A model generated the notes under the pieces. It saw only the letters and a list, made by a program, of their open reading frames with translations. It did no database searches and was not told the DNA's origin. This document shows, piece after piece, positions 3,815-26,480 of a stretch of 44,383 bases of DNA. The position numbers and the translations under genes were made by a program. Location: assembly GCA_002687905.1 (NCBI GenBank), contig NZBM01000014.1, forward strand, positions 1 through 44,383, written 5' to 3'. Each line of letters begins with the position of its first letter. Position 1 is the stretch's first letter. This DNA comes from a bacterium (GTDB lineage Bacteria; Patescibacteriota; Minisyncoccia; Phycocordibacterales; JABMNX01).

Positions 3815-5311
3815 TCAAAATTTGGAAATGAAGGTATTGTAGAAACTCTGCTTTTCTAGGAGATTCACCTCGAAAGTAAGCACAGACTTTTCTTCACTCT
3901 CTGTTGAAACTACTAACTCACCTTTGTTACTAACCACAAAAGAAGGAGCGAAATTGGCAGCGTAGATCAGAAAACGATTGTTTTCTGCGGCACGAACCTG
4001 TGCAATATTCTCAATCTGGTGGCGCAAAATTTTTGAGTCGTGGAACCACGACTGCGATGCAACATTTACTAAAAGATTCGCTTCATTTTCTACAAAACGA
4101 TTGTAAAGAGTTGGACTCAACAGCTCCGAGCAAAAGAGTGCGCCGACTTTTGCATCATTGTGAAATGCCGGCAGCTCATTTAGAGTTCCTGAGGTGTATG
4201 AGCGGTGCCTAAGCGCGCGATCAATTGTATCGCCCTTGCCAAGCAATCCTCCAATCAGTCCGTAGAGTGCCGGAGTGTACTCGCCTTGTGACACTAGTAG
4301 TTTTTTATCTGATTTCGTTTCCTCTCCAGTAGAAGAATTAAAATAGGTAATGCGAGAAGATACTTTTCCAAAATCCTCTTCGCGATGTGAATCTACTATG
4401 AGCGTGTCCCCAGCAATACCTCTTAATTTATTTAGTATATTTTTCTCTTTTGCCACTTTTATAAGAGAAGCTTGTTCCGGAAAAACAATAACGTCAGGAT
4501 TTTCCCTTGCGGCTTCTTGAAGAAGATTCATATGAAGCTCAAATCTTCTCTCTCTTTCCTTATCATCCGGGAAAAGACGGGCTTTGTGATTTGTATGAAT
4601 TGCTGAAACTGTCACTTCGCCACCACTCTCCCCCCTAGCTATCACACCAGACGAGATGCCAAAAAGAATAAGGAGTGAAGCAACTGCTAAAACAGAAAAG
4701 GATTTGTTTTCTGAGATTAAAATCTTAAAGATAAGCGTATTTGAAAGTACTGCCAGAAAGCTAAGTAAAAATACTCCTCCGAAAAAAGCATAATCAAGAA
4801 GGAAATTATTGTTTGCGAGAGCATAACCAAGAAATCCAGTTGAGAAGTAGGGTAGGAGGGAAGCTCCGTCGCCAAAAACAAAAAGTGAAAACGCCGTCAT
4901 TCTGAAGAATTCAAGCAGAGCCCAGATCAAAGGGAAAAGAAGTATTGTTGAGAACCAGTTGAAGCGGAGTATCCAAACCAAAAACGCAAAAACTGAAAAG
5001 AATAATGAGAACACTAATGATGTGAGAGACCAGTTTAGAAATACTGTAAATACTCCGAAGAAACCAGACTCTATGCCAAGTCCATCAAGTGGAAGTGCGT
5101 GCCAAAACCAAAATAAAAATGTACCTGAAAACGCAAAGCCAAATAAAAACCCGTCTATAAGGGCGTCCTTTTTATTGCTGTGTTCCTTTATAGAATAGAA
5201 AAGCGGTACTATTGCGACAAGAGATAGCCACCAAAAGAAAAAGTGGTTTAAGCTAAGACCAAGAAGAACTCCGCTTACGATGAGTATCGTAAGTCGAGAT
5301 ACTGTATTCAT
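3815..5311 (-). CDS. lnt: apolipoprotein N-acyltransferase (Lnt), apparently intact
   Basis: The 498-residue protein has about seven N-terminal TM helices (1-225) followed by a periplasmic-side nitrilase-type domain. Lnt transfers a third acyl chain to the N-terminal cysteine of lipoproteins through a Glu-Lys-Cys triad. All three are visible: Glu in VIVFPEQAS, Lys in KKLLVSQGEYTP (matching the KxxLVPFGEY context) and Cys in GALFCSELLS. The length is normal. It starts 2 bases after the Ig-gene stop, so it is in operon 1 after the TPR and Ig genes. Two lipobox proteins encoded at 30754-31511 are plausible substrates. A second, degenerate paralogue is at 9313-10776. Confidence 0.88.
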   Translation of the reverse strand: MNTVSRLTILIVSGVLLGLSLNHFFFWWLSLVAIVPLFYSIKEHSNKKDALIDGFLFGFAFSGTFLFWFWHALPLDGLGIESGFFGVFTVFLNWSLTSLVFSLFFSVFAFLVWILRFNWFSTILLFPLIWALLEFFRMTAFSLFVFGDGASLLPYFSTGFLGYALANNNFLLDYAFFGGVFLLSFLAVLSNTLIFKILISENKSFSVLAVASLLILFGISSGVIARGESGGEVTVSAIHTNHKARLFPDDKERERRFELHMNLLQEAARENPDVIVFPEQASLIKVAKEKNILNKLRGIAGDTLIVDSHREEDFGKVSSRITYFNSSTGEETKSDKKLLVSQGEYTPALYGLIGGLLGKGDTIDRALRHRSYTSGTLNELPAFHNDAKVGALFCSELLSPTLYNRFVENEANLLVNVASQSWFHDSKILRHQIENIAQVRAAENNRFLIYAANFAPSFVVSNKGELVVSTESEEKSVLTFEVNLLEKQSFYNTFISKF

Positions 5312-5313
5312 AA

Positions 5314-5985
5314 TTAAAACTCTTCAAATGTTGGAACGACATTCACAACTACACTCTCTGAAATAGGACCACCAGCAGTTGAGCATGCCAGAACGTATGT
5401 ACTCTGTTGAGTAATAGGAGCCGTGTCTTCTGTTCCACTTTCTCCTGTCTCACTAAAGCTCGGCCCAGTAACAGTACATGAACCGGGAGTTACATTCTCT
5501 GCTACCCATTCAATTTCTGATGTGAAGCCGGGCTGGACCAAGGTTGGATCAGCTGTAATAGTAATTTCTGGATTTAGAACTGTCACAGTCTGTTGAGCCT
5601 GCCCACCGTTTGAACAAACAACTGTGAACTGTGTTGTTGATGTAGGAAATACTGCTACAGCTCCTGAGGTAGCTCCGCCTGTAGAGAAATTTACGCCCGA
5701 GCTTGAGGTGGAATCAAAACAGGTCCACTGAAGTGTACAAGAACCCCCGCTGTTTATTGTCCCTCCACAATCATTTGAAAAAGTTGGAGGAGTACACAAA
5801 TCACCTGAATGCGGTGTGCCGCACGAAGCTGGAATTACCGCACCAATTCCACCTGGAGATAGAGCTGAAAAACCAACCTCAACCGAGCTAACAGGATTAT
5901 TGTGAAAAGAAATACCAACAATAGAAAAAACAGAAATAAATACTACTAAAATAAATAGTGCCGGTAGATATCTTTCTTTAATCAT
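5314..5985 (-). CDS. secreted Ig-like two-domain protein
   Basis: The 223-residue protein has an N-terminal hydrophobic segment (about 8-27, signal or anchor) and a Cys-rich Pro/Gly linker. Two Ig-like domains follow, the first with SSGVNFSTGGATSGAVAV and the second with a typical E-I-E-W core. The Ig block is nearly colinear with the Ig block of 1012-1917, including the SSGVNFSTGGA motif and the identical C-terminal logic (PTFEEF here, PSFEEF there). There is no YSQ segment here. It lies between the TPR and Lnt genes and is very likely co-transcribed. Probably an exported structural or adhesive protein; function unknown. Confidence 0.82.
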   Translation of the reverse strand: MIKERYLPALFILVVFISVFSIVGISFHNNPVSSVEVGFSALSPGGIGAVIPASCGTPHSGDLCTPPTFSNDCGGTINSGGSCTLQWTCFDSTSSSGVNFSTGGATSGAVAVFPTSTTQFTVVCSNGGQAQQTVTVLNPEITITADPTLVQPGFTSEIEWVAENVTPGSCTVTGPSFSETGESGTEDTAPITQQSTYVLACSTAGGPISESVVVNVVPTFEEF

Positions 5986-6006: not shown

Positions 6007-6729
6007 CTAGAAAGTTTCCGACCGAACAAGTGCAAGGTTATCCTTTATAATCAAAATCATATTCTCAATCGCTCTACCCGCTATTCCTGAGTCATTCCCG
6101 GGATTTGCCCTAGACCACTCCTCTTCAGTCAGGCTCTTCGCCTCTGAAAGAGCCTCTTCAAAGAACCTCTTTGCCCTCTCTTTAAGATTGAGGTTCATTA
6201 AAGCGCTTCCAAGAGTCGTCAAAAGCCATGGGTTTTGGGGCGCAATTGCCAATCCCAACCTTGCGTATTCTTCTGACTTATTAAAATCTCCCTTGCTGAA
6301 ATAGACCCACGCTAAATCATTATATGCTGCCCAATTTCTGTCTTTAACAGAAAGATAATGTAGGAAACTCTCTTCTGCTTTGTCAAAATTCCCAGCATAG
6401 CCGTTTATAAGACCATGAACATAAAAAGAAGATATTACATTGTCGCCATGACGCTCCACCTGCTCATCTATTAATCTGATTGCCTCGTCAAAATCCCCTT
6501 CTAAAAAATAAATGCGAGCGAGTTGGTGCTTTGCATATAAATGATCTTCGCCTTCTTCGAGAGCTCTTTTGAAATATTCTCTGGCAATATCTAAATTATA
6601 TTTATTTCCATATCCGAAATATAGATTTCCTCTCTCAAAGTAGTCAACTTTCATTACCTTTGGAGAAAAGCTAATTATTGCCGAAACAATTAGTATTAAA
6701 AGGACAATTTTTATGCCTCTTTTATCCAT
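6007..6729 (-). CDS. membrane-anchored TPR protein
   Basis: The 240-residue protein has an N-terminal TM helix (about 6-22) and roughly four tetratricopeptide repeats with the W/G/A/Y/P spacing visible: HQLARIYFLEGDFDEAIRL, YVHGLINGYAGNFDKAEES, YNDLAWVYFSKGDFNKSEE and LTTLGSALMNLNLKERAKR. It is likely an extracytoplasmic scaffold. It is the first gene of operon 1 (TPR, Ig, Lnt), 21 bp before the Ig gene, and is divergent from 6791-8431 with a 61-bp shared promoter region. A second helical-repeat membrane protein beside the second Lnt-like gene (10764-11933) gives operon 2 the same parts list. Confidence 0.85.
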   Translation of the reverse strand: MDKRGIKIVLLILIVSAIISFSPKVMKVDYFERGNLYFGYGNKYNLDIAREYFKRALEEGEDHLYAKHQLARIYFLEGDFDEAIRLIDEQVERHGDNVISSFYVHGLINGYAGNFDKAEESFLHYLSVKDRNWAAYNDLAWVYFSKGDFNKSEEYARLGLAIAPQNPWLLTTLGSALMNLNLKERAKRFFEEALSEAKSLTEEEWSRANPGNDSGIAGRAIENMILIIKDNLALVRSETF

Positions 6730-6790: not shown

Positions 6791-8431
6791 ATGTATACAG
6801 ACATTGAGGAGAAAACAAAGAGTTTAAAGGAAAAAATAGCAAAAGAAGTATTTGTTTCTGGAGATAATGAGAAAATAATCGGCCCAAACGGAGAGAAGCA
6901 AAAATGGTTATTTGACTTCAGAAAAATATTATTTGACCCAGAGTCTTTAAATACTATTGCAGAGCTTTTTTGGGATATATACAAAGATCAATACCCTTTC
7001 CAAATTGGAGGACTTGAAACTGCTTCAATTCCAATATTCTCTGCAATAGTTACAAGAAGTAAAGATTTCGGGAAGCCCATAAATGGCTTTTTTATAAGAA
7101 AGGAGCGCAAAAGCACAGGTCTCCAGAAAATAATTGAGGGTAAGCTAAATAGTTACCCTGTTATTTTAATTGATGACTTAATTAATACGGGAGGATCAAT
7201 CAAAAGACAGCTCAGCCTTATGGAAAATGAGGGTGTTGAAGTAAGGAGCGCTTTCTCAATACTCTGTTTTAGGGACAAAGAATTTTATCCTTTTGATATA
7301 TCTTCGCTTTTTTCCTTAAAAGACTTCAACATACCGCTCTCCGAGAAAAAGGAAAAAAAGAAAGAGCTTCAATTTGAAGTTTTGTGGCACTTTAAAAATG
7401 AAAATCCTAATTACTTTTATACAAATCCAAAATCTCGTCCTGCCTATGCTTTTTCAGGAGTATGTTTTGGAACTGATGACAAAAAATTTGTAGCACTTAA
7501 TAGCTCGAGTGGAAAAATGAAGTGGGAATATAAAGTTGGACGTACCTCAAAAGGTAAAAGTATATTCTCTTCCCCCTCAATACATAAAAACATAGTTTAC
7601 TTTGGAGCATATGATGGAAATGTTTATGCTCTCAATACAGAAAATGGAGAGAGAATTTGGAAATTTACAGAAGCAGATTGGGTTGGTTCTTCTCCGTATG
7701 TGTCGCCAGATTTAAATTCTCTTTTTGTAGGGCTTGAGTTTGGACTGCTTAAACAAAGAGGCGGAATTGTCTCCCTTGATTTAGAAAGTGGAAAGAAAAA
7801 ATGGCAATACACCTTCAAAGGACTTGCTCATTCAAGTCCTGCTTACAGTAAAAAATATAATGCAGTAGCAATTGGCTCTAATGATTTTAATGTTTATCTT
7901 CTGGATGCTAAAAACGGAAAGCTTAAATGGAGTTTTAAAACTGGCGGAGAAGTGAAAGCTTCTTTTAGCATTGATGAGGATAGAGGAAGAATAGTTTTTG
8001 GTTCTCACGATGGAGGCTTTTATGTGCTTAATATAGAAGACGGCGCTCTTATCTTTAAATATCAGACTGACGATATAATTTATTCAACACCGCTGATGTA
8101 TGACGGTGAGGTAATATTCGGCTCTTACGATAAATATATTTACAGCCTAAATTTAAACTCATTTAAATTGTCTTGGAAATTTGATGCTGGAAGCAAAGTG
8201 TCGGCTGACCCTATTGTGGTTGACGGCAGATTCTACGTTGGCGCTCATAATGGAATTTTTTATGTGCTTAATAGAGGAGGAGAAAATATAGGTGAATTTT
8301 TTGCAGGAGAGAGAATAGTAAATGCGGCTAGATATGACGAATATAAAAAACGGCTATATTTACCCACTTTTGCGGGAGAAATCTACTGTTTAAAGGAGAA
8401 TGACTTGACAAAACCTCCAAAAAGTGCTTAA
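6791..8431 (+). CDS. orotate-type phosphoribosyltransferase fused to PQQ-like beta-propeller
   Basis: Residues 1-200 form a type I PRTase fold: GGLETASIPI (73-82), the OPRT-like FIRKERKSTG loop (101-110) and the PRPP-binding motif VILIDDLINTGGS (124-136). Residues about 205-540 are seven or so PQQ-type propeller blades with recurring phrases such as YFGAYDGNVYALNTENGERIWKF cut into GxxDGxxYALN...G...W units. No signal peptide or TM is seen, so the propeller is probably cytosolic. Free OPRTs act in pyrimidine synthesis; here the propeller may be a regulatory or interaction platform. The C-terminal codons overlap the promoter of the next cassette (8405-8433). The combination is unusual. Confidence 0.85.
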   Translation: MYTDIEEKTKSLKEKIAKEVFVSGDNEKIIGPNGEKQKWLFDFRKILFDPESLNTIAELFWDIYKDQYPFQIGGLETASIPIFSAIVTRSKDFGKPINGFFIRKERKSTGLQKIIEGKLNSYPVILIDDLINTGGSIKRQLSLMENEGVEVRSAFSILCFRDKEFYPFDISSLFSLKDFNIPLSEKKEKKKELQFEVLWHFKNENPNYFYTNPKSRPAYAFSGVCFGTDDKKFVALNSSSGKMKWEYKVGRTSKGKSIFSSPSIHKNIVYFGAYDGNVYALNTENGERIWKFTEADWVGSSPYVSPDLNSLFVGLEFGLLKQRGGIVSLDLESGKKKWQYTFKGLAHSSPAYSKKYNAVAIGSNDFNVYLLDAKNGKLKWSFKTGGEVKASFSIDEDRGRIVFGSHDGGFYVLNIEDGALIFKYQTDDIIYSTPLMYDGEVIFGSYDKYIYSLNLNSFKLSWKFDAGSKVSADPIVVDGRFYVGAHNGIFYVLNRGGENIGEFFAGERIVNAARYDEYKKRLYLPTFAGEIYCLKENDLTKPPKSA

Positions 8432-8468: not shown

Positions 8469-9224
8469 ATGTGTTCTTTAAAAAAGGTGGCCACCACCAT
8501 CTTGGCAGTGGCAGCAACTTTGTTCGTGGTATTTGGCGCGCACGCCTCGACCACTGACGTACTTGGTCGAGACGGGTGCACACCCTACCAACTCAAGATC
8601 GGTGACCGCATACACACAACCAACCGAAATGGCACCATGGAGCTCGTCTTTGCGGGCGTGGAAACGGAAGGTTCGCACGCCGGCGAGGCTCGGTTCAACG
8701 CCACATGGAAGGGTGACAACAGATGGATCCGGTACCAGAAGTCTGACAGCCTCAACATCACAGCTGTCTACCGTCCGGACAGTGGCAGACTAGTCGCGGC
8801 TTCCAGGCGCACACCAGCTATAGAATTCTGGCCGGCACACCTAGTCACCGGACAGGTTCTACAGCCAATGGTGGAGTACGTCTATAGCTGGAACTACGGC
8901 TTCTTCACAAGGGGTTCGACCACCCGCACCCTCGAGAAAGTAGAAGTTCTGAACTGCGAACTTATCGAGATCGGGAGCGGGCAAAAAGTGCACGCCCACC
9001 ACATCAGAATAACTGACAGAAGACATATGGCGGATGGCAGAAAGGCCAACCGCCCACGCGTTGAGTCATGGTGGGTTGTGGAAGGTGTTGGGAAAGTTAA
9101 GGGGGTAAACAAAGAGTTTCCTCAGAATAACTTTCACATCAGCTTTGTGCAACCAGTCCAGGGTCGCGATAACCAAGGAGAAGGGGCCCAGACCCGAAGC
9201 CCCCAAGAAGACAGGGGTCAGTAA
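8469..9224 (+). CDS. GC-rich cassette: secreted protein of unknown function
   Basis: The 251-residue protein has a Sec signal (MCSLKKVATTILAVAATLFVVFGAHAS, cut near AHA). A mature beta-rich domain follows, with a repeated tryptophan pattern (NATWKGDNRWIRY, YSWNYGFFTRG, RVESWWVVEGVGKVKGV) and a low-complexity Gln/Gly/Asp tail. The layout is reminiscent of periplasmic beta-barrel-like domains that end in a GxGxVxxV strand, but I cannot name a family. A GGAAAGG Shine-Dalgarno precedes the ATG. Codon use is GC-rich, unlike both neighbours. It lies between two converging AT-rich genes with its own promoter and terminator. Confidence 0.8.
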   Translation: MCSLKKVATTILAVAATLFVVFGAHASTTDVLGRDGCTPYQLKIGDRIHTTNRNGTMELVFAGVETEGSHAGEARFNATWKGDNRWIRYQKSDSLNITAVYRPDSGRLVAASRRTPAIEFWPAHLVTGQVLQPMVEYVYSWNYGFFTRGSTTRTLEKVEVLNCELIEIGSGQKVHAHHIRITDRRHMADGRKANRPRVESWWVVEGVGKVKGVNKEFPQNNFHISFVQPVQGRDNQGEGAQTRSPQEDRGQ

Positions 9225-9253: not shown

Positions 9254-9316
9254 GGCTGGCTAGCCCAGCCGCCAACACAACCGGCGCACTCACGATGCGC
9301 CGGTTCTTCTTTTTAT
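9254..9316 (+). terminator. terminator region of the 8469-9224 gene
   Basis: Two hairpins in series: GGCTGG/CCAGCC at 9254-9270, then AACCGGCGCA/TGCGCCGGTT (9279-9288 with 9296-9305) followed by CTTCTTTTT. The second is a strong intrinsic terminator. It also separates the cassette from the converging gene whose stop is at 9313. Confidence 0.9.
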
Positions 9317-10776
9317 AAAATCAAATTATAAAAAATTACCCCTTCTTTATCTCGACTAACTTTCTCCAAAATTTTACCACTCGGACTTATTACCGCAGAA
9401 GGACCAGTCTTCATAGAGTGGAGAACATAAGAATTATTTGAAATAGCTCTAAGTTGTGAGGCTCGAAGATGAGCTTTTCTCGCTAAATAACTACCAAAAT
9501 CGCCAGTATTCCCAGAGACTATTATTATCCTCGATGATCTCTCTTCTTTTAAGAGAGATCGAACAATAAAGGGATGAAATCCCTCACTACATGAGAGTGC
9601 TGGTATATTAACCCCCCCTGCTTCAGTATTAATAGTTAAGAGAGCTGACTCTCCTCTTTCGTAGCGCTTTGAAAAATTCTCGAGCTTAGGAAAAATAGCG
9701 TCAATAAATTTTGGAATTGAGTCAGAAAATGGAAATAGACTTTCCTTTTCAGAAATTGATATACTTCCATCTTCATTAAAAGACGCCGTAACTAAATACC
9801 TTTTACTATCTCTATCCAAGGTCAAACTGCTAACTATAGATCTTGATTGAAATGGTGCAAGCAGTGATAATTCTACATACTTTTTATTTAATTCACTTGT
9901 TTCTACGTTTCCAAAATATTGCCCAGGGAGCAGGAGCAAATCTACATCTTTATCGGGATAGAGGCTTAGTACAGAAATTGTTTTTTTGTGTAGCCCATCA
10001 AAGTATTGCTGCCCAGGACTACTAATAAAATTTGGCTGAACAATAGCTATATTAATACTTCCGATACTTATTTTTCCATTTTTAAGACCGTCAATTATAG
10101 AACCAGTGATAAAAAGCATCATCAAGATTAGTGCAGGCGCTAATATTAGGAGGATTCTTTTTTTGCTACTTAATTTATAGAAATGAGATCTGTGCTTGAA
10201 TATTAATAAAACAAGAATATTAAAAGAAACCACAATAAATGTAAGTAGAAATACATCTCCTATAAATGCAAATTGTCTTAGAGATTCTTGTGGAAGTAAC
10301 GCTTCGCCAATGTGTCCCCAAAATAAACTGAAGCTAAGAAAGCCAAGTAGCAACTCATGTATAACAAATACAAAAGGAAGGTAGAGTAGCCGGGCTAAAG
10401 TATTTTTTGTGCACAAATACACAACTGTAAGTGATATTCCAATTACTAAGGCACGAAGCAGTATATAAATTAGAATTGAAAACTTTATTGAATTTATAAC
10501 TGTCGTGTCCAAAAGAGCATTTATTGATTCTATTGAAAGCAGTGGAAAACTAAATGTGAGAGTGTATAAAAAACTAAACACAAATATTACGGTGACTAAT
10601 TCTTTTTGTTTTTTGATAGATTCCAACAATAAAAAAATTGGTACAAGAGAGATAAAAGACAAAAACCAAAGAACATCAATCCAATGAGAAATTCCAATTA
10701 AAACCACTGAAGACAGTATTAGAAATTCGGCATTAAGTTTTTGAAATATCTTGGATGGGTTTTTTATATTTTCCAT
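9313..10776 (-). CDS. Lnt-like protein lacking the catalytic Glu
   Basis: The 487-residue protein has Lnt architecture: six to seven N-terminal TM helices and a C-terminal nitrilase-fold domain. Of the expected Glu-Lys-Cys triad, Lys (SEKESLFPFSDS) and Cys (PALSCSEGF) can be placed. The Glu position, normally PE in the motif after DVDLLLLP, reads LLLLPGQYFG, so the acidic residue is missing. The GE of the Lys motif is also changed to SD. It may be inactive, non-acyltransferase, or a specialised partner. Its start overlaps the stop of 10764-11933 by 13 bp, so it is the last gene of operon 2. The intact paralogue is at 3815-5311. Confidence 0.75.
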   Translation of the reverse strand: MENIKNPSKIFQKLNAEFLILSSVVLIGISHWIDVLWFLSFISLVPIFLLLESIKKQKELVTVIFVFSFLYTLTFSFPLLSIESINALLDTTVINSIKFSILIYILLRALVIGISLTVVYLCTKNTLARLLYLPFVFVIHELLLGFLSFSLFWGHIGEALLPQESLRQFAFIGDVFLLTFIVVSFNILVLLIFKHRSHFYKLSSKKRILLILAPALILMMLFITGSIIDGLKNGKISIGSINIAIVQPNFISSPGQQYFDGLHKKTISVLSLYPDKDVDLLLLPGQYFGNVETSELNKKYVELSLLAPFQSRSIVSSLTLDRDSKRYLVTASFNEDGSISISEKESLFPFSDSIPKFIDAIFPKLENFSKRYERGESALLTINTEAGGVNIPALSCSEGFHPFIVRSLLKEERSSRIIIVSGNTGDFGSYLARKAHLRASQLRAISNNSYVLHSMKTGPSAVISPSGKILEKVSRDKEGVIFYNLIL

Positions 10777-11933
10777 CCGATTTCGCGAAGTAAATCACCC
10801 ATTCGATCGTCCACCCTTACCATGTTAAGTGTTGATCTTTGTAGAGTATTAGTTTCATCTTCACCAAGTAATCTTAGGAAATTAAAAAATGATAAACTAC
10901 GATCTTCATTTTCAAAAAGCACATCCAACAAACTTTTAACATCTTCGGCGCGATCTTCATGACCTAATGTTGTTAAATTTGACAAGAAAAGACCATAAAA
11001 ATATCTAGTATAAAGATCTGGATTTCTTCCCTCTACAGATCCTGACAACTCGCTAAACTCCTTCATGGCACTTTGGTAAGAATCCTCAGCAATAATCTTG
11101 TTTTCTTCCTTTCCCTCAACAACAAAAAGGCCGGCATATATATTGCCTTTTAATCTGAATGTAGAAATCCTTGTCTGCGGAGATAAACCACCTCTAGCTA
11201 CGCTCAAATCTTCTTGGGAAATTGTATTTTCGAAAGACTTATTTGCCTCAGTAAGATACACTTTGAGTTGGTCCAAATATATAGACCTCTTCTCCTGGCC
11301 TAGTTTTTTATCTGGCCCACCAAACCTATCTTCAAGAAGTCTGTTTCCGTACCAAAAAGCAACCCTATACAAACCTTCTATTGTTGGAAATAATTCATTT
11401 GCAAAATCATAAGCTCTTTTGAGTCCTTGTTCTATACCCTCTCCTTCTTTAAGAAAAGAGCCCCAAATATTGTCCCCCGAAAATATCTCTCTTCTGGCGA
11501 ATTCCTCATTATAAGTACCAGAGTATACATCTAAAGCATATATTATCGATCCAGCTCGATAACGGCTTGGATATTCTTCTTGAATTGATACTTCTTTGAG
11601 GACCTGAACTCCTTGTAGTGTTTTATCAGTAGAAATATGCGCTACTCCTAAATTTATTTTCGCCAAAGCTTCTTCGGCTGGATTATCTGACTTTCTCACC
11701 GCTTCTTCAAAAAGTGCCACCGAAGATGAGTCGCGCTTTAAAAATAAGTCCCTACCTTCGTCAAAAGAAGAAGCAAATTCACTTATCTCTTTCTTATCCT
11801 TACTAAAAGGCCCCTTTATGAAAAAATATATCCCTCCTAATATAACTAAAACCAAAGCAAATATTATTGCAACAATTAAATACATCTTTACAATTCCTTG
11901 AGTCTCTAAATCTCGTTCTGGTAATTCGTCCAT
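10764..11933 (-). CDS. membrane-anchored helical-repeat protein (TPR-like)
   Basis: The 389-residue protein has a short cytosolic N-terminus, one TM helix (about 18-40) and a long extracytoplasmic helical region with weak TPR-like pairs (for example EEALAKINLGVAHISTDK and TRISTFRLKGNIYAGLFVVEG). No enzyme motif is visible. It lies 8 bp after the rhodanese gene and overlaps the Lnt-like gene, so it is firmly in operon 2. Its position beside an Lnt-type gene mirrors the TPR gene of operon 1, although the two TPR-like proteins are not obviously similar in sequence. Confidence 0.75.
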   Translation of the reverse strand: MDELPERDLETQGIVKMYLIVAIIFALVLVILGGIYFFIKGPFSKDKKEISEFASSFDEGRDLFLKRDSSSVALFEEAVRKSDNPAEEALAKINLGVAHISTDKTLQGVQVLKEVSIQEEYPSRYRAGSIIYALDVYSGTYNEEFARREIFSGDNIWGSFLKEGEGIEQGLKRAYDFANELFPTIEGLYRVAFWYGNRLLEDRFGGPDKKLGQEKRSIYLDQLKVYLTEANKSFENTISQEDLSVARGGLSPQTRISTFRLKGNIYAGLFVVEGKEENKIIAEDSYQSAMKEFSELSGSVEGRNPDLYTRYFYGLFLSNLTTLGHEDRAEDVKSLLDVLFENEDRSLSFFNFLRLLGEDETNTLQRSTLNMVRVDDRMGDLLREIGWKI

Positions 11934-11941
11934 AATTTTAA

Positions 11942-12427
11942 TTAATTAAAGCTATACCAGCTATCTTCAACTAGAGGCAGGCCAGCGTCTCCCCATCCAC
12001 GTATTCCATTTGCGCTCCTTTTTATATTAGAAAACCCATGATGTTCTAGATAGTGGTAGGCAACACCAGCAAGAGCCCCTCCTGTACAAATTAATACTAT
12101 TTCCTTCCCTTTTCTTGGAAGTCTATCTTTTTCAACCGAAAGAAGGTGGATTGGTATGTTTATTGAGCCTTCGGCGTGCGCTTTAAAGTATTCATTAGGA
12201 GACCTTACATCTATAAATATGTAGTCGTCGCTATTTTCTTTGAAATCTTCATAAAATATCGTAGGATCAACGTCATTTATAGAAGGAGATACTAGAGCAA
12301 TGTTTTTTAGTGGAGTAAGGTAAATAATCGTACTTGAAATAAGAACCCCTAAAACAAATATAGAAAGGAAGAGCGGATATAGCTTAGGATTATTAAACTT
12401 TTTGCTCGCCTTCATACTACTTTCCAT
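11942..12427 (-). CDS. membrane-anchored rhodanese-domain protein
   Basis: The 161-residue protein has one TM helix (about 18-38) and a single rhodanese domain: YIFIDVRSPNEYFKAHAEGSINIP (CH2A-type motif, shown in part) and the active loop LICTGGALAG with the catalytic cysteine. Rhodaneses carry sulfur as a persulfide or take part in thiol exchange. The domain would face outward given the N-terminal anchor. The start overlaps the stop of the Hint-domain gene by 11 bp; an ATG at 12415 is an alternative. Together with the TlpA-like protein it gives operon 2 two thiol-active extracytoplasmic proteins. Confidence 0.85.
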   Translation of the reverse strand: MESSMKASKKFNNPKLYPLFLSIFVLGVLISSTIIYLTPLKNIALVSPSINDVDPTIFYEDFKENSDDYIFIDVRSPNEYFKAHAEGSINIPIHLLSVEKDRLPRKGKEIVLICTGGALAGVAYHYLEHHGFSNIKRSANGIRGWGDAGLPLVEDSWYSFN

Positions 12428-13406
12428 TTAACACCAAGAAGAAATTGTCTCCATCCTCTGAAACCAAAAAATTTTCAGACTCTGTTTTAGGATGAAATAC
12501 CTCTGATTCCTCCCGATATGAAGAGATGTTATGAGAAAAAGACTCTTTTTTAACTACTGCTCTATTTTCAAATGCACCAACCTCTTTTGTAAGGACAAAT
12601 AAAGGAGTGCCTTTTCTAAGGGTTCTCGCACGAACTCCCTCATAATTGTCCCCAATCACAAACCTGTGTGTATCAACTGCTTCTACTTGAGCGCCTCCTG
12701 AAGACATTATCTTTGCAAACATTCTTAAACCTCTCTTAAATGCATACATTCCGGTGACTTCAACTTCTCTCACTTTTGGCTCCCTTCTAAATCCATTGTA
12801 TTCAAAATCAACTCCAAGAATCTTTTCCCCCACCTTAAGATCCTTGAGCTCTTTGTGAAGTATTTCTCCACTTGCTCCAAATCCTACTGCAACTTTTACC
12901 GATCCTTTAAAACAGCAACCACCACCACCGTCATCGGAATCACCCCCAACTCCATCACAACCCCCTCCGCCTCCACTGCCTCCGCCGTCGCCTCCGCCGT
13001 CGCCGTCGCCGTACCCTCCTTGGCTATAGTATGAACCCTGTGAATAATAGCTTCCTTGTGAATAGTAGGAGCTTTGTGAATAGTAGGAGCTTTGTGAATA
13101 GTAAGAGCTTTGGCTGTAATAAGAGCCCTGTGAATAGTACGAGCCTTGTGAATAATATGAACTTTGTGAGTAATATGAGCTTTGGCTATAAGGAACATCG
13201 GCATGAGCAACAGAAAAAAAGAAAGAATCTTCAATTATCTCGCCATCTCCATTTTCTCTTTCGTCGCCATCTGATGATGAGTTCGCGATATCTCTCAATT
13301 TCTCTTCAGCAGAAAGACCTAACACAGTTGCACCAAGACCCAAAAGGCCGAGTGACAACATTCTTCTTGTTTTTGCTACTTTTCCTAAAAGCATATTTAA
13401 ATACAT
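12417..13406 (-). CDS. exported YSQ-repeat, Gly-rich protein with C-terminal Hint domain
   Basis: Visible parts of the 329 residues are a long N-terminal leader with hydrophobic segment MLSLGLLGLGATVLG and a possible cleavage site SVAHA before Asp70. Ten YSQ motifs in near-perfect YYSQSS/YYSQGS hexads follow (about 73-130), then a Gly/Asp tract with Cys150 (132-163), then Cys164-Cys165. Residues 164-329 look like a Hint domain (hedgehog/intein fold): CCFKGSVKV, LKDLKVGEKILGVDF, VTGMYAFKRG, VDTHRFVIGD, LRKGTPLFVL and a closing NFFLV. Hint domains rearrange a peptide bond at the first Cys, releasing or transferring the upstream segment. The usual terminal His-Asn is absent and block B is atypical (VDTH), so splicing is unlikely and cleavage only possible. 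Confidence 0.78.
   Translation of the reverse strand: MYLNMLLGKVAKTRRMLSLGLLGLGATVLGLSAEEKLRDIANSSSDGDERENGDGEIIEDSFFFSVAHADVPYSQSSYYSQSSYYSQGSYYSQGSYYSQSSYYSQSSYYSQSSYYSQGSYYSQGSYYSQGGYGDGDGGGDGGGSGGGGGCDGVGGDSDDGGGGCCFKGSVKVAVGFGASGEILHKELKDLKVGEKILGVDFEYNGFRREPKVREVEVTGMYAFKRGLRMFAKIMSSGGAQVEAVDTHRFVIGDNYEGVRARTLRKGTPLFVLTKEVGAFENRAVVKKESFSHNISSYREESEVFHPKTESENFLVSEDGDNFFLVLNGK
13036..13200 (-). repeat. tandem 18-bp coding repeats (YYSQ[S/G]S)
   Basis: Nine to ten imperfect 18-bp units encode the Tyr-Tyr-Ser-Gln-Ser/Gly-Ser hexads of the Hint protein. Units such as TTTGTGAATAGTAGGAGC (plus strand) recur almost unchanged next to each other, so copy number could vary by slippage in steps of six residues. 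Confidence 0.9.
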
Positions 13407-13433: not shown

Positions 13434-14888
13434 CTATCTTAATATTGGATGTGGGATAGTGTTTGGAAATTTAGACTTTTCAGAAACCCCCATCAAACGA
13501 CTAGCGCCTAAAGTTATATTCTTCTCTTTTAAGTAAAGCGGTACCAAAGCTGGAACAATCGTCTTAAGCACGACATAATTCACGCCTTTTAAGAACTTTT
13601 CTGAAGCAAAATATACATATATTTCATATTCATTTCCCATATCCCTCAAGCGCTTTTTTATTGTTTTCAACTCTTCAATAGGACTCTCAATTGAGCTCTT
13701 GGAGCTTTCTAATTCCTTGATATCCTTCTCTTCTCCTTTAAGAAACCAATCTATTTTATTTAAATCGTCTAAATTGCTCCAGAAAAGAATCCTCTCCGTT
13801 TCGTCAAAATTTTCTTTATCTAATTTTCCCGGAGAAAAGATATTAGGCTCAAATATATAGTGGGAAGAGAGACTTTTCATCAAAGAGTACCTTATAGCCT
13901 TAATAGCAGAGCCTGCACATCCCAAACCAACGCTTACAAAGTTACTAACTCCATTGTTTTTGATTATCACACTTGCATAAACAGGTATCCCAACATCCTC
14001 CGTTGAGATATCGAGTATTGAGACTTTGAGAGATTGTTTCTTTAAGTTTGAGATAATTTCTCTGATAAAAACATCTTCTATTGAACCGATCTTGACTCTT
14101 TGAGGAGTTAAAAAATTTAGCCAGTGTATCAAAAATGCATCATTTACAATTGCCTTTCTTAGTGAACGGAGAAGAGCGGAGTCGTAATCAAACATACCTG
14201 AAGCAGTGTAAGAATTTGACTCCCTTAGAAATGGATCTATCTCATCATTTTCTAAATGTATGTCGTAATTGCTAAAAATTAATTGTGACGGAATAAAAGA
14301 CGTTGTGTTTGTGGATATATTTTCTCCAAGCGTCCAAGAAATTGGAGCTCTGTCTCCATGGTGAAGATCCATTCTCTTTTCAATTTGTTCCTTTGAAAAA
14401 CCTGCTAATTTATTAGGGTTTAAAAAATCCTTACCTTTATCTTTAAGAGCCTCTATTGAGGCTCTTAAATCCTCCTTTTTTACTTTAAGAGCTTCGTGCT
14501 CTAAAAAAGAGCCGATTGATTTTGATATTGCCTCATTCGAGCTAAAAGATACCGAGGGTTTGTACAAGAAGTCACCGCAGGAAACATTGGCTATTATGGG
14601 AGAGTTCTGTTCTCCCCTTCTCCCAAATATATTTACTTCTAAGTTCTCAATATGGAGATTTTTCTCAAGATACCTGAGTAAGTTTGGCCAATCATCAGCC
14701 TTTAATACCTCAAGTTTGCCGGAAAGAGCCCTAACTAAATTGGCTAGGTAATTAAGTATTTTCTCACTGTGATTTTCCCTTATTTTAAAACCCCTATCCG
14801 CCTTTTGTTTTTTAAGAGTGTCTTTGGAAGTTATTTTGGAAACTAATACTGGTGTGACTACTCTGTCTATTTTTTCATCCTTGTTCAT
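13434..14888 (-). CDS. YcaO-family protein (divergent)
   Basis: The 484-residue protein matches the YcaO domain in order. It has a middle segment SYTASGMFDYDSALLRSLRK followed by AIVNDAFLIHW (family: ExIERDAF.xxW). Next come VSILDISTEDVGIPVYAS, then VSVGLGCAGSAIKAIRYSLM, and a C-terminal VVLKTIVPALVPLYL ending NTIPHPILR, the proline-rich tail seen in azoline-forming members. YcaO enzymes use ATP to modify peptide backbone amides (azoline, thioamide, amidine). Several ATP-site acidic or Arg residues are altered (ERDA reads VNDA), so activity is uncertain. The first 60 or so residues are not recognised. It lies 27 bp before the YSQ/Hint gene and 8 bp after the TlpA-like gene; the Cys/Ser/Gly-rich Hint protein is the obvious candidate substrate. 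Confidence 0.72.
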   Translation of the reverse strand: MNKDEKIDRVVTPVLVSKITSKDTLKKQKADRGFKIRENHSEKILNYLANLVRALSGKLEVLKADDWPNLLRYLEKNLHIENLEVNIFGRRGEQNSPIIANVSCGDFLYKPSVSFSSNEAISKSIGSFLEHEALKVKKEDLRASIEALKDKGKDFLNPNKLAGFSKEQIEKRMDLHHGDRAPISWTLGENISTNTTSFIPSQLIFSNYDIHLENDEIDPFLRESNSYTASGMFDYDSALLRSLRKAIVNDAFLIHWLNFLTPQRVKIGSIEDVFIREIISNLKKQSLKVSILDISTEDVGIPVYASVIIKNNGVSNFVSVGLGCAGSAIKAIRYSLMKSLSSHYIFEPNIFSPGKLDKENFDETERILFWSNLDDLNKIDWFLKGEEKDIKELESSKSSIESPIEELKTIKKRLRDMGNEYEIYVYFASEKFLKGVNYVVLKTIVPALVPLYLKEKNITLGASRLMGVSEKSKFPNTIPHPILR

Positions 14889-14896
14889 TATATAAA

Positions 14897-15451
14897 CTAC
14901 TCAACCACGTCTATCATCTCCTCTATTTTCTCAATGAAATATTCCTCTGTTCTCCATCCAAATTCAATAGAATGAACATCGCCGTTTTTCGTAATTAAAA
15001 CTGACGAAGGCGTGATATCTGCTCCGAGTGTAAAGAAGTTATAAATTTCTTCTTCATCACCTCCTAAAAACACAGGGTAATTCACATCAATCTCTTCTAT
15101 AAATTCTCTGCCGGCTTCTACTGATTCTCTGTGTGGTCTATGAATACCAATTATCTCTAAATCTTTATCATAGAAGTCGCGTTTCAACCTTTCTAAAACG
15201 AGTGTCTCTTCTTTACAAAAAGAACACCAAGCAGCCCAGAAGTTTATTATCAAATGTTTTTTCCCCAGAAACTCTGACATTGAGTGCTTCTCTCCAGAGA
15301 AAGTTACGAGTTCAAAGTCAGGTATTGTTGCAAATCTATACGGCTCGCTTCTAAAATTGCCGTAATAGGAAATTGCAAATACCAAAACTAGTAATAGAGC
15401 TGAAGCCAGAAGCGTGTACTTTATATTTTCCTTATACTTCTCTATATACAT
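14897..15451 (-). CDS. membrane-anchored TlpA-like thioredoxin
   Basis: The ATG start at 15451 gives a 184-residue protein with one N-terminal TM helix (about 12-32) and a thioredoxin fold of the TlpA/AhpC-TSA-related type. It has NFWAAWCSFCKEE with the redox CxxC (WCSFC) and the cis-Pro segment DITPSSVLI. An in-frame GTG at 15469 is a less likely start. These proteins reduce or oxidise disulfides outside the membrane. It is the first gene of operon 2, upstream of the YcaO and Hint genes, whose product has adjacent cysteines. That fits a role in keeping a cysteine nucleophile in a given redox state, which is inference. Confidence 0.88.
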   Translation of the reverse strand: MYIEKYKENIKYTLLASALLLVLVFAISYYGNFRSEPYRFATIPDFELVTFSGEKHSMSEFLGKKHLIINFWAAWCSFCKEETLVLERLKRDFYDKDLEIIGIHRPHRESVEAGREFIEEIDVNYPVFLGGDEEEIYNFFTLGADITPSSVLITKNGDVHSIEFGWRTEEYFIEKIEEMIDVVE

Positions 15452-15499
15452 TATTTTGAATTCTATCACGCAAAGCTTATTGACCTCTTAATATTTGCA

Positions 15500-15527
15500 T
15501 TGCTCCAGTCTAATTATCTGGTACAGT
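15500..15527 (+). promoter_or_regulatory. probable promoter of tRNA-Arg
   Basis: TTGCTC (15500-15505), a 16-nt spacer ending TGG, and TACAGT (15522-15527), 20 bp before the tRNA. It overlaps the 3' end of the antisense recombinase reading frame. Confidence 0.5.
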
Positions 15528-17153
15528 TTTTCTGTACACAAATACACGCCCCCGTAGTTCAAGGGATAGAATACAAGTTTGCGGAACTTGCGATCCAGGT
15601 TCGAGTCCTGGCGAGGGCACCAGAATTTGACTTGTCGGCATTTGACCGACGGACGAGTGGGCAGCCCGCAGGACTGCCCATTGGTTTTGCCCCACAACAA
15701 CGCCGTTTTTTGGCGTGCCGCCTGTGGCGGCACGCAGGTTTTTCTCGCCGAGGCGGAGGTTCGAGCCAAAGATTTCTTTGGCGCAGACCTTTTTCGCAAA
15801 AAGGTCTGAATCAGAAGCGATTTCGTTAAGACGCTGAGCGGTTTTTAGCCAATCTTGGAAAGGTTCGAGCCAATCATTCTGCTTGCGTGAAAGAGAAGTG
15901 ATTTTTTCTTCAAGCGACTTCTTTTGCGAGAGTAGTTTTGCTTTTTCCGTGCGATACACACTACGCTCAATATCCTGCTCCAAATATCCGTCAAGAAGTC
16001 GCTGGAGTTTTGTTTGTATAGTTGCGATTTTCTCCTCTTCCTCTTTCACGCAAGCAGTCAAAGACTGGGCGGAATTTTTGTAGTCTTGCGAAGCAAGTCG
16101 ATTAAGTTCGTCCGCCCAGTCTTTGGGCAAAGAAACTTTTTGAATGAGGCATGATAGTTGCTTGTCTAATTCTTCCTTACGAATACAGGGTTCGGGACAT
16201 TTGATTGATTTGTGTTTCTTCGTGCAGTGATAATACACATACTCATGCACATTACCGTTCTTTTGTTTCTTGACTCTGTATTCGCCCGTGATCATCATGC
16301 CGCATGAAGCGCAGGAGATAAGTCCGCAAAAAGGTTGCGGTTCATTTTTGGGTTTGCGCTCTGGCTGACCACGTTGCTTGAGCATTGCCTGCGCTTCATC
16401 AAAAAGTTTCTTTGTAATGATTGGCTCGTGCTTTCCTTCGTGTATTTCACCACCGTATTTGAACAGACCAACATAAAACGGATTGGAAAGGATAAAAGCC
16501 GCTCGCGTCTTGGAGATTCTCTTTCCGGAACGCGTGGTGATATTGTGCTTCGCCAAAAAGTCTGCAACATCTTCCAGCCGCATATCACCTTGTGTGTATT
16601 TTTCAAAAGCCAAGCGGATAACTTTTGCTGATTTCTTCTCCACAACGATTGTTTTGATGCGTGGGTCATTCAAGTATCCAACAGGCGCTTGGCTTGGAAA
16701 GATACCCATGCGAACTTTTTGGCGAAGGCCTCTTTTCGTGTTCTCGGAAAGAGAATCGACGTAGTATTTGCTTTGGACAAATGCCATCGACAATGTGAAC
16801 TTGCCTTGCGGTGTATTTTCAAACCAGTGGCTCGGAAATTTGAGGCTCGCAAGAGTATCGATGTCCAGAAAGTACACAATCTGTCCGCCGTCCACGGAAT
16901 TACGCGCGAGGCGATCTGGGTGCCAACTGATGATGCCGTTTGCTTCACCACTTTCTATGCGCCGCACCATTTCGCCAAAAATGGGACGCCCTGGAACTTT
17001 CGCGGTTTGCTTTTCTACAAACTCATCAACAATATGCAAACTTTCATTTTTGGCGAAAGCGCGCAATTCCGTGAGCTGCGATTCAATACTCATCACTTGT
17101 TTGTCCTCAACATCGGTACTCTTGCGAGCGTACAAAAAGTATTTTTGATTCAT
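15510..17153 (-). CDS. large serine recombinase
   Basis: Read from ATG 17153, the protein has the resolvase catalytic domain (YARKSTDVEDKQ with nucleophile Ser; SWHPDRLARN), a recombinase domain (APVGYLNDPR, RAAFILSNPFYVGLFKYGG) and a zinc ribbon (CGLISCASCGMM ... YYHCTKK ... IKCPEP). A coiled coil (about 400-450) and a tail follow. Such enzymes join or invert DNA between short att sites. The frame has no stop before it crosses the tRNA-Arg gene, so its last 30 or so residues are the antisense of the tRNA and its promoter. No obvious Shine-Dalgarno precedes the ATG, and the 5' leader is highly structured. A 148-bp inverted repeat includes the tail-coding part. Confidence 0.9.
   Translation of the reverse strand: MNQKYFLYARKSTDVEDKQVMSIESQLTELRAFAKNESLHIVDEFVEKQTAKVPGRPIFGEMVRRIESGEANGIISWHPDRLARNSVDGGQIVYFLDIDTLASLKFPSHWFENTPQGKFTLSMAFVQSKYYVDSLSENTKRGLRQKVRMGIFPSQAPVGYLNDPRIKTIVVEKKSAKVIRLAFEKYTQGDMRLEDVADFLAKHNITTRSGKRISKTRAAFILSNPFYVGLFKYGGEIHEGKHEPIITKKLFDEAQAMLKQRGQPERKPKNEPQPFCGLISCASCGMMITGEYRVKKQKNGNVHEYVYYHCTKKHKSIKCPEPCIRKEELDKQLSCLIQKVSLPKDWADELNRLASQDYKNSAQSLTACVKEEEEKIATIQTKLQRLLDGYLEQDIERSVYRTEKAKLLSQKKSLEEKITSLSRKQNDWLEPFQDWLKTAQRLNEIASDSDLFAKKVCAKEIFGSNLRLGEKNLRAATGGTPKNGVVVGQNQWAVLRAAHSSVGQMPTSQILVPSPGLEPGSQVPQTCILSLELRGRVFVYRKTVPDN
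15548..15622 (+). tRNA. tRNA-Arg (anticodon GCG)
   Basis: A full cloverleaf can be drawn: acceptor GCCCCCG with CGAGGGC (one C-A mismatch at the fifth pair), D stem GTTC/GAAT, anticodon stem CAAGT/ACTTG around TTGCGGA (anticodon 15581-15583), 4-nt variable loop, and T arm CCAGG-TTCGAGT-CCTGG. The discriminator is A15619 and CCA is encoded (15620-15622). A GCG anticodon reads CGC/CGU. The last 6 nt are part of the 148-bp inverted repeat, and the serine recombinase frame runs antisense through it, as expected of an integration site. Confidence 0.85.
15617..15764 (+). repeat. 148-bp inverted repeat, left copy
   Basis: It starts with the GCACCA of the tRNA-Arg 3' end and runs into the recombinase tail codons. 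It matches 17351-17498 in inverted orientation with no length change and roughly ten substitutions by eye. Confidence 0.92.
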
Positions 17154-17166
17154 AATATTTTGTAAA

Positions 17167-17262
17167 AGCAGAAAGGACCACTCCAGTGTTGTAACCTTAA
17201 CGTTAGTCAAGATATCTGGAATAGCCCTTTCTGCTGACTAACTAATAATTGGTTACAACACT
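17167..17262 (-). promoter_or_regulatory. structured recombinase leader with nested and interleaved inverted repeats
   Basis: Three inverted-repeat pairs occupy the recombinase 5' leader. AGTGTTGTAACC (17185-17196) pairs with 17251-17262. GTTAGTCA (17202-17209) pairs with 17235-17242, inside the first pair. AGCAGAAAGG (17167-17176) pairs with 17226-17235, which lies in the loop of the second pair, giving a pseudoknot topology 14 bp before the start codon. It could control translation or be a recombinase binding site. Confidence 0.65.
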
Positions 17263-17350: not shown

Positions 17351-17498
17351 TCGAACCTCCGCCTCGGCGAGAAAAACCTGCGCGCCGCCGCAGGCGACGC
17401 GCCGCAAAACGGCGTTGTTGTGGGGCAAAACCAATGGGCAGTCCTGCGGGCTGCCCATGCGTCCGTCGGTCAAATGCCGACAAGTCAAATTCTGGTGC
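17351..17498 (-). repeat. 148-bp inverted repeat, right copy
   Basis: Inverted copy of 15617-15764. It begins TCGAACCTCCGCCTCGGCGA on the plus strand and ends TTCTGGTGC. Its last bases overlap the left inverted end of the adjacent 3.7-kb element. Confidence 0.92.
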
Positions 17499-17509: not shown

Positions 17510-17710
17510 CAAGCTCGAAACCATTTTCAAAACAAAAGGTGATTCACGCGCCGAGCGCGTGCCAATTCCAAATCACATCGTACGCTCCGATTGCGTGGTA
17601 ATACGAACAAAGAAAGCGGAGCTCGCAAGCTCGCACAGTATCTCGTCCACCTGCGGGCGGACGAACAACGACGAACACAGGGCGCGCCATCGCCCTCGTA
17701 ACCTCGGGCG

Positions 17711-17823
17711 ACCGTCCGACCAAAACCGTTTCCTTTCATTTTTGTGCGGCTCCCCCCTCAAACCCCCCGCCGCGAAGCGGAAAAAAGAAAGGTAAGGAAA
17801 CGGTTTTGTCGGTCGGGTTCGCT
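17711..17823 (+). repeat. 113-bp internal inverted repeat, left
   Basis: It contains ACCAAAACCGTTTCCTTTC and, after a GC-rich centre (CCGCCGCGAAGCGG), GAAAGGTAAGGAAACGG. The repeat unit is therefore itself an imperfect palindrome. Nearly identical to 20902-21013 inverted. Confidence 0.9.
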
Positions 17824-19709: not shown

Positions 19710-19760
19710 TTTCACAGCTCTCTTTATTCCCTTTATAAAGAAACAAAGAGAGCTGTGAAA
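19710..19760 (-). promoter_or_regulatory. 16-bp leader hairpin before the 485-aa gene
   Basis: Perfect stem TTTCACAGCTCTCTTT (19710-19725) with AAAGAGAGCTGTGAAA (19745-19760) and a 19-nt loop, about 60 nt upstream of the start codon. No T-run follows, so it is more likely a regulatory structure than a terminator. Confidence 0.65.
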
Positions 19761-20901: not shown

Positions 20902-21013
20902 AGCGAACCCGACCGACAAAACCGTTTCCTTACCTTTCTTTTTTCCGCTTCGCGGCGGGGTGTGGGGGGAGCCGCAAAAAATTGAAAGGAAACGGTTTTG
21001 GTCGGGCGGACGG
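20902..21013 (-). repeat. 113-bp internal inverted repeat, right
   Basis: Inverted copy of 17711-17823, with a few differences in the poly-C/G centre and a 4-bp difference at the outer end. Confidence 0.9.
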
Positions 21014-21350: not shown

Positions 21351-22259
21351 ATGTGGCGCATTCTTTTTGCGACGCTTTTTGCGGTCCTCCTCTCGTGGAC
21401 CGCAGAAGCAAAAAAGCAGGTCTGGATCGACGCCGATCCAGCCTGCGGAGAGATGCTCCAGACGTCAGACCCTGACGACTGCGTTGCCATCCTGATGGCT
21501 ATCCGCTCAGGTAGCTTTGAGATCGCAGGTATCAGTACTGTCGGGGGAAATGCCAGACTTCCAGATACGTGGCAGGTCGCACTTCGGCTTGTCGATGGCT
21601 CACACCCCATCTACCGAGGCAGCTTCTCTTGTAAATCAAGGGATGTATTTGCATTTGCTCAAGCTGCAGAGCGTGGTGGACTGACCGTGCTTGCGCTCGG
21701 TCCGCTCACCAACATCGCACGCTACCTAAAGTGCCGCCCAGATCTTGCAGAGAAGATCAAGCAGATCGTCTTCGTGGGATCACGTCGTCATGACGAAGAG
21801 TTCGTCATAAACGACAGCTGGCTGACTGGGTTCTCTTTGCGAGACCTCAACGTAGAGCATGACCCACAAGCAGTCGAAGACGTTCTCTCGACTGGTGTTG
21901 CGATTCGCTACGTTCCATTTGCGGCTGGAAACGCAGTGCACATTGCCTACGGGGAGTTCGCTGGGTCACACCCAAACCTTCCCGAGTGGCTGATGGAACG
22001 TATTCGCGACTGGGGTGCAACCCAGTGGCTTTTCCTCGGAGCAGACGGTCGCGTTCCGTTTGACGAAATGGCAGTTGCGCTACTTCTTGACGAGAACGAG
22101 CAACTCTTCAGCTGCGAGCCAGTCCAAGGGCAAATGGTCGCAGGAAACCTCATCGTTGAGCTTGCACAAGGTGCAAGCGGAAACGAAGAAGTCTGCCTGC
22201 CCACAGACAAAGAAGGAGTTCGAAAACTAATCCTTTCGGCAGTTGCCGGAGGAACCTAA
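21351..22259 (+). CDS. GC-rich cassette: secreted inosine/uridine-type nucleoside hydrolase
   Basis: The 302-residue protein has a signal peptide (about 1-20, cut near AEA). It has the family's N-terminal Asp cluster in altered form (VWIDADPACGEM...SDPDDCVAIL, normally DxDPGxDDxxAI) and the typical LTVLALGPLTNIARYL segment, then a late conserved region around NVEHDPQAVEDVL. These enzymes hydrolyse N-ribosides at a calcium held by the Asp cluster. An insertion of about nine residues splits the Asp motif, so activity and substrate are uncertain. A GGAGGT Shine-Dalgarno, its own promoter and a terminator overlapping the stop mark it as a self-contained unit. An exported enzyme could salvage bases from host or environmental nucleosides. 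Confidence 0.82.
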   Translation: MWRILFATLFAVLLSWTAEAKKQVWIDADPACGEMLQTSDPDDCVAILMAIRSGSFEIAGISTVGGNARLPDTWQVALRLVDGSHPIYRGSFSCKSRDVFAFAQAAERGGLTVLALGPLTNIARYLKCRPDLAEKIKQIVFVGSRRHDEEFVINDSWLTGFSLRDLNVEHDPQAVEDVLSTGVAIRYVPFAAGNAVHIAYGEFAGSHPNLPEWLMERIRDWGATQWLFLGADGRVPFDEMAVALLLDENEQLFSCEPVQGQMVAGNLIVELAQGASGNEEVCLPTDKEGVRKLILSAVAGGT

Positions 22260-26420: not shown

Positions 26421-26436
26421 AGTCTTATCGCTAGGA

Positions 26437-26470
26437 CTCCCCAGCACCTAACGCGTTAGGTGCTGGGGAG
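26437..26470. repeat. 34-bp perfect palindrome
   Basis: The arms are CTCCCCAGCACCTAACG and its complement with no spacer (centre CGCG at 26452-26455). It has no T-run and no adjacent gene end left to terminate. It could extrude as a cruciform or be a protein-binding site. Confidence 0.95.
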
Positions 26471-26480
26471 CCCAGGCAGG

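Follow-up and report, generated by a model that had tools for sequence, protein, structure and literature searches.

A YYSQ-hexad array and a Hint-like C-terminus in an exported Patescibacteria protein encoded next to a YcaO-family gene

The analysed window, a stretch of 44,383 nucleotides, carries an apparent operon on its minus strand, in which the genes are separated by 8-27 bp or overlap by short distances. It starts with a TlpA/ResA-like thiol-disulfide oxidoreductase (14897..15469), followed after 8 bp by a YcaO-family gene of the SagD/TOMM type (13434..14888; Pfam YcaO, TIGR03604), by the gene of a 329-aa exported-type protein, P0001 (12417..13406), and by a membrane-anchored rhodanese (11942..12427), which overlaps P0001 by 11 bp. 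A 389-aa protein that has a membrane segment at its N-terminus and recurs at loci of this kind (10764..11933), and an apolipoprotein N-acyltransferase-like (Lnt) gene (9313..10776; TIGR00546, 2.4e-39) complete the operon. The gene at 3815-5311 resembles an apolipoprotein N-acyltransferase too and is the second such-looking gene of the window. Also encoded here are a protein combining a phosphoribosyltransferase with a PQQ beta-propeller (6791..8431, plus strand) and, on the minus strand, a TPR protein (6007..6729), an exported protein with the C-terminal sequence PTFEEF and weak Ig-like matches, none of them over the Pfam cut-off (5314..5985), and P0002 (1012..1923), an exported Gly-rich protein with four YSQ motifs, a weak Ig-like match and a C-terminal PSFEEF.

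A serine recombinase gene (15510-17210; Resolvase/Recombinase) adjoins the operon. Together with two inverted repeats, one of 148 bp (15617-15764 and 17351-17498, 94.6%) and one of 115 bp (17709-17823 and 20902-21012, 92%), it suggests a mobile region. Long, near-perfect hairpins are located between genes at 19710-19760, 26434-26473 and 26481-26531.

P0001 consists of five parts, all read from the minus strand. A hydrophobic N-terminal membrane or signal segment (residues 17-31, 13314..13358; 15-residue mean hydropathy of 2.0) is followed in the translation by a 35-residue linker with many acidic residues and by the motif AHADVP (residues 67-72, 13191..13208), which is also present in precursor-like proteins of related YcaO loci. 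Next comes the YSQ array (residues 72-131, 13014..13193), composed of the partial unit PYSQSS and nine YYSQ[SG][SG] hexads, and behind it a Gly/Asp-rich tract with few Cys and Ser (residues 132-164, 12915..13013), whose position matches that of the Cys/Ser-rich core in the relatives. The remainder is a Hint-like C-terminal domain (residues 165-329, 12420..12914), which starts with Cys165 in the sequence CFKGS. A preliminary description of this DNA, made from its letters, had called the protein exported, and with its hydrophobic segment P0001 indeed looks exported or membrane-anchored. In 20 proteins of this kind, the hydrophobic stretch is 7-35 residues away from the AD motif; for L101 the gap is listed too short, because the script took an AD upstream of the real AHADVP. 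In most of the 20, such a distance exceeds what is usual for a signal-peptidase site, but the proteins may still have an ordinary signal peptide.

The array was described as ten YSQ motifs in YYSQSS or YYSQGS hexads, and this count was confirmed: P0001 contains ten YSQ at an exact spacing of six residues, nine of them as YYSQ, a number that was reached by none of 100,000 shuffles of its residues (shuffle maximum: 3). The 18-bp DNA units are less uniform than the "near-identical" of the earlier wording implies, as eight of the nine full units differ at the DNA level, whereas they encode only three protein versions (YYSQSS, YYSQGS and YYSQGG). Pairwise comparison of the codons of the full units resulted in 98 synonymous versus 28 non-synonymous differences; the YYSQ residues are invariant in all nine, with either TCA or AGC as the Ser codon. 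Because the DNA varies synonymously around an invariant YYSQ and even switches between TCA and AGC, the repeat is held at the protein level and does not reflect recent slippage. A neutral low-complexity spacer that arose by replication slippage and has no specific function would explain the tandem 18-bp periodicity and the different unit numbers between species, but we disfavour this explanation as very unlikely: it does not account for the constancy of YYSQ despite the codon changes, nor for the recurrence of the motif across the phylum and its absence from 36 contigs of other phyla (see below). That the unit number may change had been suggested, and between relatives from the same family it does, from 2 YSQ in G005 and PYNQ plus four YYSQ in G003 to the ten YSQ of P0001.

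A shorter version with four YSQ, announced for a second protein, was found in P0002, with a looser pattern than in the P0001 array. Gly-rich tracts accompany both, after the array in P0001 and before it in P0002. The resemblance that had been noted to the [G/S]Y[G/S]Q repeats of FUS-type domains is loose, since the strict motif occurs not once in P0001 and twice in P0002. The prion-like low-complexity domains of the FET family (FUS, EWS) consist of Tyr/Ser/Gly/Gln-rich repeats, and the array of P0001 resembles them in its composition (Tyr 32%, Ser 40%, Gln 17%), but differs in its Tyr doublets, its regular hexads and its location in an exported bacterial protein. We therefore rejected homology of P0001 to FUS: with no strict motif and a different context, the likeness is an analogy only. 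By this analogy, self-association of the YYSQ array is plausible.

To describe how far such arrays are distributed, we refer to three scans. A pattern of two YYxQ hexads matched in 11 of 397 genomes of the same order. Four of them (G059, G096, G151 and G226) had one isolated match each and were dropped; the match in G151 (YYSQPTYYTQ) might be genuine. The seven genomes retained are G000, G003, G004, G071, G081, G143 and G245. With a three-hexad pattern, 2 of 239 genomes of a phylum sample were found, the window's genome among them, and a scan of genome_contigs (84,980 prokaryote species) yielded 64 contigs, which were sorted into phyla by hand. An ORF with at least three YY[SGATN]Q units and small spacers was present in 20 of the 24 contigs from Patescibacteria and in all four without a phylum label, and in none of the 36 from other phyla. 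Seventeen of the 20 Patescibacteria proteins have a strongly hydrophobic stretch within their first 90 residues. Within this analysis, we define the YYxQ hexad module as a family of exported ORFs in which YY[SGATN]Q occurs at least three times, with small spacers between the units; having nine full hexads and a hydrophobic N-terminus, P0001 belongs to it. The preliminary description had named two ways in which it could fail, a lack of YSQ-type repeats in related genomes and an artefact of assembly. Arrays are present in related genomes, and finding them repeatedly in independent genomes speaks against an artefact.

The proteins that carry the arrays vary: in some, the array is placed right behind the signal sequence, in others beside Gly/Cys tracts or longer domains. 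Because the carriers differ, we regard the YYxQ array as a module common to different exported proteins of Patescibacteria. In L164, L207, L216, L219 and L004, it lies between a signal-like sequence and a common domain, KGSG[ST]FVIDHPL[DN]P...LLYHSFVE. Across the phylum, arrays are found on exported proteins whose architectures are unrelated, and the P0001 array is rich in Tyr, Ser and Gln; both would agree with a FUS-like, self-assembling extracellular matrix or fibre that is functionally unlinked to linear-azole-peptide (LAP) clusters and has YcaO as an incidental neighbour. We rate this as possible but rather doubtful. Apart from the missing strict motif, YcaO is enriched in the array genomes (4/7 versus 36/397; hypergeometric 0.0017, uncorrected for kinship), and the arrays are located directly after AHADVP in G000, G003 and G005 and after AYADQPGGG in L203.

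These positions point to the precursor slot of LAP-type loci. YcaO relatives were detected in 10 of 95 genomes by a single-sequence search and in 36 of 397 by a profile search (E <= 1e-10). The loci were split into 24 of LAP-type and seven "other" YcaO loci after their architecture had been seen; L118, with an E-value no better than that of some "others", was kept as LAP-type for its single-domain YcaO and its precursor. In comparison to 98 control loci, the LAP-type loci contain a SagB-like nitroreductase (19/24 versus 0/98), a TPR protein (16/24 versus 7/98), the phosphoribosyltransferase-PQQ protein (10/24 versus 0/98), a 389-aa-type protein (6/24 versus 1/98) and a rhodanese (4/24 versus 1/98); Ig was found at 5 of the 98 control loci.

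A small ORF was counted as precursor-like if it combined a membrane segment at the N-terminus with an xxAD motif (mostly AxAD[VTAFIYQ]P) and a tail rich in Gly, Ser and Cys; we fixed these criteria when the first examples were already known. Such an ORF is present at 17 of the 24 LAP-type loci, at none of the seven other YcaO loci and at 3 of 117 control loci; with L118 moved to the other loci, the first two counts become 16/23 and 1/8. The three ORFs from control loci (L040, L175 and L050) all bear YSQ and come from the same family, and L175 is the contig of L040 with an identical protein. LAP-type loci lacking a qualifying precursor are L061, L063, L065, L102, L103, L110 and L113, with near misses in L063 and L065, which carry variants, and in L061, where a fused protein contains SADTPPP. 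The criteria also flagged P0002 (1012-1923), whose AD motif looks like chance. Classic precursors with a Cys/Ser/Gly core are encoded in L062, L067, L068 and L101. Measured against what is expected of a LAP precursor, P0001 has the leader motif and the Gly tract, but only three Cys downstream of the leader motif, of which two lie at the Hint junction, and an inserted Tyr/Ser/Gln array. Its position, its leader motif and its Gly tract all fit the precursor family, a context that the preliminary description had missed, as it had the Hint-like domain.

The orthologues show the array in different surroundings. In G005, from the same family, the protein reads AHADVPYSQSSYYSQ, continues with a Gly/Asp/Cys tail and ends at 109 aa. 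A rhodanese (52% identity) and a 389-aa-type protein follow downstream in the order of the window, and both Hint and YcaO are absent. The protein of G003 has AHADVPYNQ, four YYSQ hexads and a Gly/Asp tail, and its gene lies beside TPR and Ig genes, again without YcaO. In L203, AYADQPGGGYSQ... is encoded with a YcaO immediately upstream that has kept its ATP motifs. Because this array adjoins an intact-looking YcaO, arrays do not require the loss of YcaO. G002 and G004, likewise of the same family, possess a precursor without YSQ, together with YcaO and SagB.

The window YcaO matches PF02624 with 7.8e-23 and TIGR03604 with 1.1e-31, the latter under the trusted cut-off, and LynD, TruD and MusD, which we take to be cyanobactin-type heterocyclases, are among its best matches in solved structures (PDB). 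According to an excerpt of PMC8120280, YcaO proteins have three ATP-binding motifs. Among 29 aligned members, the window protein is alone in lacking the leading Glu of both motif 1 (SFLEH, not ExxER) and motif 2 (KAIVN(D), not Exx[EQ]R(D)); motif 3 is variable in several of the 29. Its C-terminus reads PHPILR, where most of the 29 end with PHPFP or similar. The Glu residues of motifs 1 and 2 presumably act as ATP/Mg ligands. A search of the window's own genome (99.7% complete), with one SagB relative as the query and no positive control in the same run, returned no SagB match. From the missing ATP-motif glutamates and the SagB that was not found we infer a loss of azole chemistry; on this sequence evidence, heterocyclisation appears to have been lost in the window lineage.

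An active LAP/RiPP pathway would be the alternative, in which the window YcaO heterocyclises Ser and Cys of P0001, perhaps including the Ser of the array, and an azoline peptide is exported. The conserved position in the operon, the membership of the window gene in the YcaO family, the YSQ precursor beside the intact-looking YcaO of L203 and the LAP clusters that PMC7298704, in the part that covers them, reports for the phylum are all in line with it. Nevertheless, we consider it quite unlikely, as the window YcaO has lost the two leading glutamates kept in the other 28 of the 29 proteins and carries PHPILR instead of the common PHPFP, while the genome gave no SagB match with the one query and few Cys follow the leader motif. 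Separate from the LAP-type loci is a second YcaO type of about 730-750 aa in the same order (L114, L069, L115, L119 and L120), at which, of the LAP-type neighbours, only the nitroreductase matches.

For the C-terminus of P0001, Pfam gave Hint as the sole match, with E=0.09-0.12 and 12.4-12.8 bits against a cut-off of 29.7. We compared the domain with Hint domains from exported proteins of the order (L143, L146, L148, L155 and L162; alignment A2) and with L190. Using hhalign, alignment A2 was matched with E=0.0007, a probability of 26% and a score of 27.85, which none of 200 shuffles reached; one unrelated segment among 343 controls scored 26.9. After adding L190, the score was 27.06 (0/150 shuffles). 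In local BLASTP against L190 alone no match was obtained (best E 0.10). Global alignments resulted in z values of 3.8-7.3 against the six Hint domains, versus 3.8 and 2.5 against two proteins that look like single-strand DNA-binding proteins (SSB) and come from the weak matches described below.

At the level of single residues, Cys165 aligns with Cys1 in all six compared domains. Like Hint (PF01079/PF07591), the P0001 domain starts with CF, contains a D-x-K-V-G-[DE]-K block and the His of block B, and ends with N-F-F...L-V-x-N, retaining the final Asn. In addition to the Pfam score below the cut-off, it differs in block B, where TxxH reads VDTH (Thr to Val), in the terminal HN, which reads LN (penultimate His to Leu), and in extra residues in the middle of the domain. 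Two AlphaFold models (pLDDT 36 and 37) were uninformative on the fold, and no direct relatives of the domain were found in genome_contigs or viral_contigs. Weak matches of the domain in 297 genomes of the order, by eye mostly SSB-like proteins of about 157 aa, were taken as chance. Overall, the C-terminal domain of P0001 probably adopts a true Hint fold, as far as these alignments tell.

Hint domains are found beside Gly tracts in the exported proteins L143 and L162 of the same order. L190 (2839-5724), a patescibacterial protein of 961 aa, has a YSQ/YAQ array followed directly by a full and Hint-looking domain, CFSPDTL...LVHN. Such arrangements would suit a conflict-type surface protein, in which contact would make Hint release a cargo, with the YSQ/Gly part serving only as a stalk. 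For P0001 we regard this as highly unlikely: the protein ends with the Hint-like region, so that there is no cargo behind it, and the Hint assignment itself is weak.

The explanation we prefer, and to which we give about an even chance, is that P0001 descends from a Patescibacteria family of exported, membrane-anchored LAP-type precursors and now serves as an exported structural polypeptide, having lost the chemistry and gained the YYSQ array and the Hint-like tail. Most of the relatives would use a YcaO cyclodehydratase together with a SagB-like dehydrogenase to turn Cys and Ser of the Gly-rich core into azol(in)es. For P0001, export and anchoring by the N-terminal hydrophobic segment, a step supported by the sequence, would come first, and the protein might then be cut at the AxA-D-x-P motif. 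In the weakest step of this model, cleavage of the chain before Cys165 by the Hint-like domain may release the YYSQ-Gly segment or attach it to another molecule. By analogy, the Tyr/Gln/Ser array could finally act as a spacer at the cell surface that associates with itself or with partners via its Tyr and Gln side chains. A more far-reaching version, which we put forward tentatively and believe to be unlikely, would see a RiPP pathway turning into a surface-polymer system: the azole core replaced by the Tyr/Gln array typical of the phylum, Hint releasing the product or coupling it covalently to the cell surface, and YcaO kept as a non-catalytic leader-binder.

The current view is that Patescibacteria live on other cells; their surface coat is little known. 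LAP clusters have been described in CPR including Parcubacteria, mostly with a nitroreductase (Sharrar et al. 2020, PMC7298704). The window resembles these LAP/TOMM clusters, as they appear there, in a YcaO that adjoins a short precursor, usually together with a SagB-like nitroreductase, but differs in the YYSQ array and Hint-like tail of the precursor, in the YcaO without ATP-site glutamates and in the SagB that was not found. PMC12153355 likewise mentions RiPP clusters with YcaO from CPR, while PMC11613949 states none for its Patescibacteria genomes. A gracilibacterium encodes a hypervariable surface protein with PTD repeats, variable in the DNA and conserved in the amino acids (Sieber et al. 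2019, PMC6851277, in excerpt). Like this protein, P0001 is an exported CPR repeat protein with an N-terminal TM segment and a repeat conserved at the protein level; the gracilibacterium protein differs in repeating PTD and not YYSQ, and the excerpt describes no YcaO context for it. For Patescibacteria, our search of the open-access literature (PMC) yielded no paper that deals with YSQ-type repeats or with Hint domains. New are the taxonomic restriction of the array, as seen in these scans, and its place at the start of the precursor core, and further the Hint-like C-terminus, which is suggestive only, the YcaO without two ATP-motif glutamates and the SagB that was not found. As a repeat that Patescibacteria carry and that none of 36 contigs from other phyla contains, the module offers a concrete candidate for adhesion or matrix formation that can be expressed. 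If a precursor of the peptide-antibiotic type was indeed recruited, this would be a rare traceable route from a modified peptide to a structural protein.

Many exported proteins at these loci, several of them with weak Ig-like matches, share a C-terminal sequence of about P-x-F-[EQK]-E-[FI]. In the window it occurs at 1012-1923 and 5314-5985, elsewhere in L040 (6641-7426), L050 (3645-4463), L062 (1975-2700), L065 (1292-2059), L066 (14924-15643), L101 (1382-3376), L106 (2777-4285) and L048 (1-3459). It is possibly a sorting signal, or merely a conserved last strand.

Four further stretches of the window, at 2988-3683, 8469-9224, 21351-22259 and 31050-31511, are single exported-protein genes with a G+C content of 0.49-0.58 by stretch and a proteobacterial look by eye. 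No common flanking repeat was found around these high-G+C genes. The one at 21351-22259 encodes a nucleoside hydrolase (PF01156), and L050 and L068 have genes resembling those of this group close to their YcaO or precursor loci.
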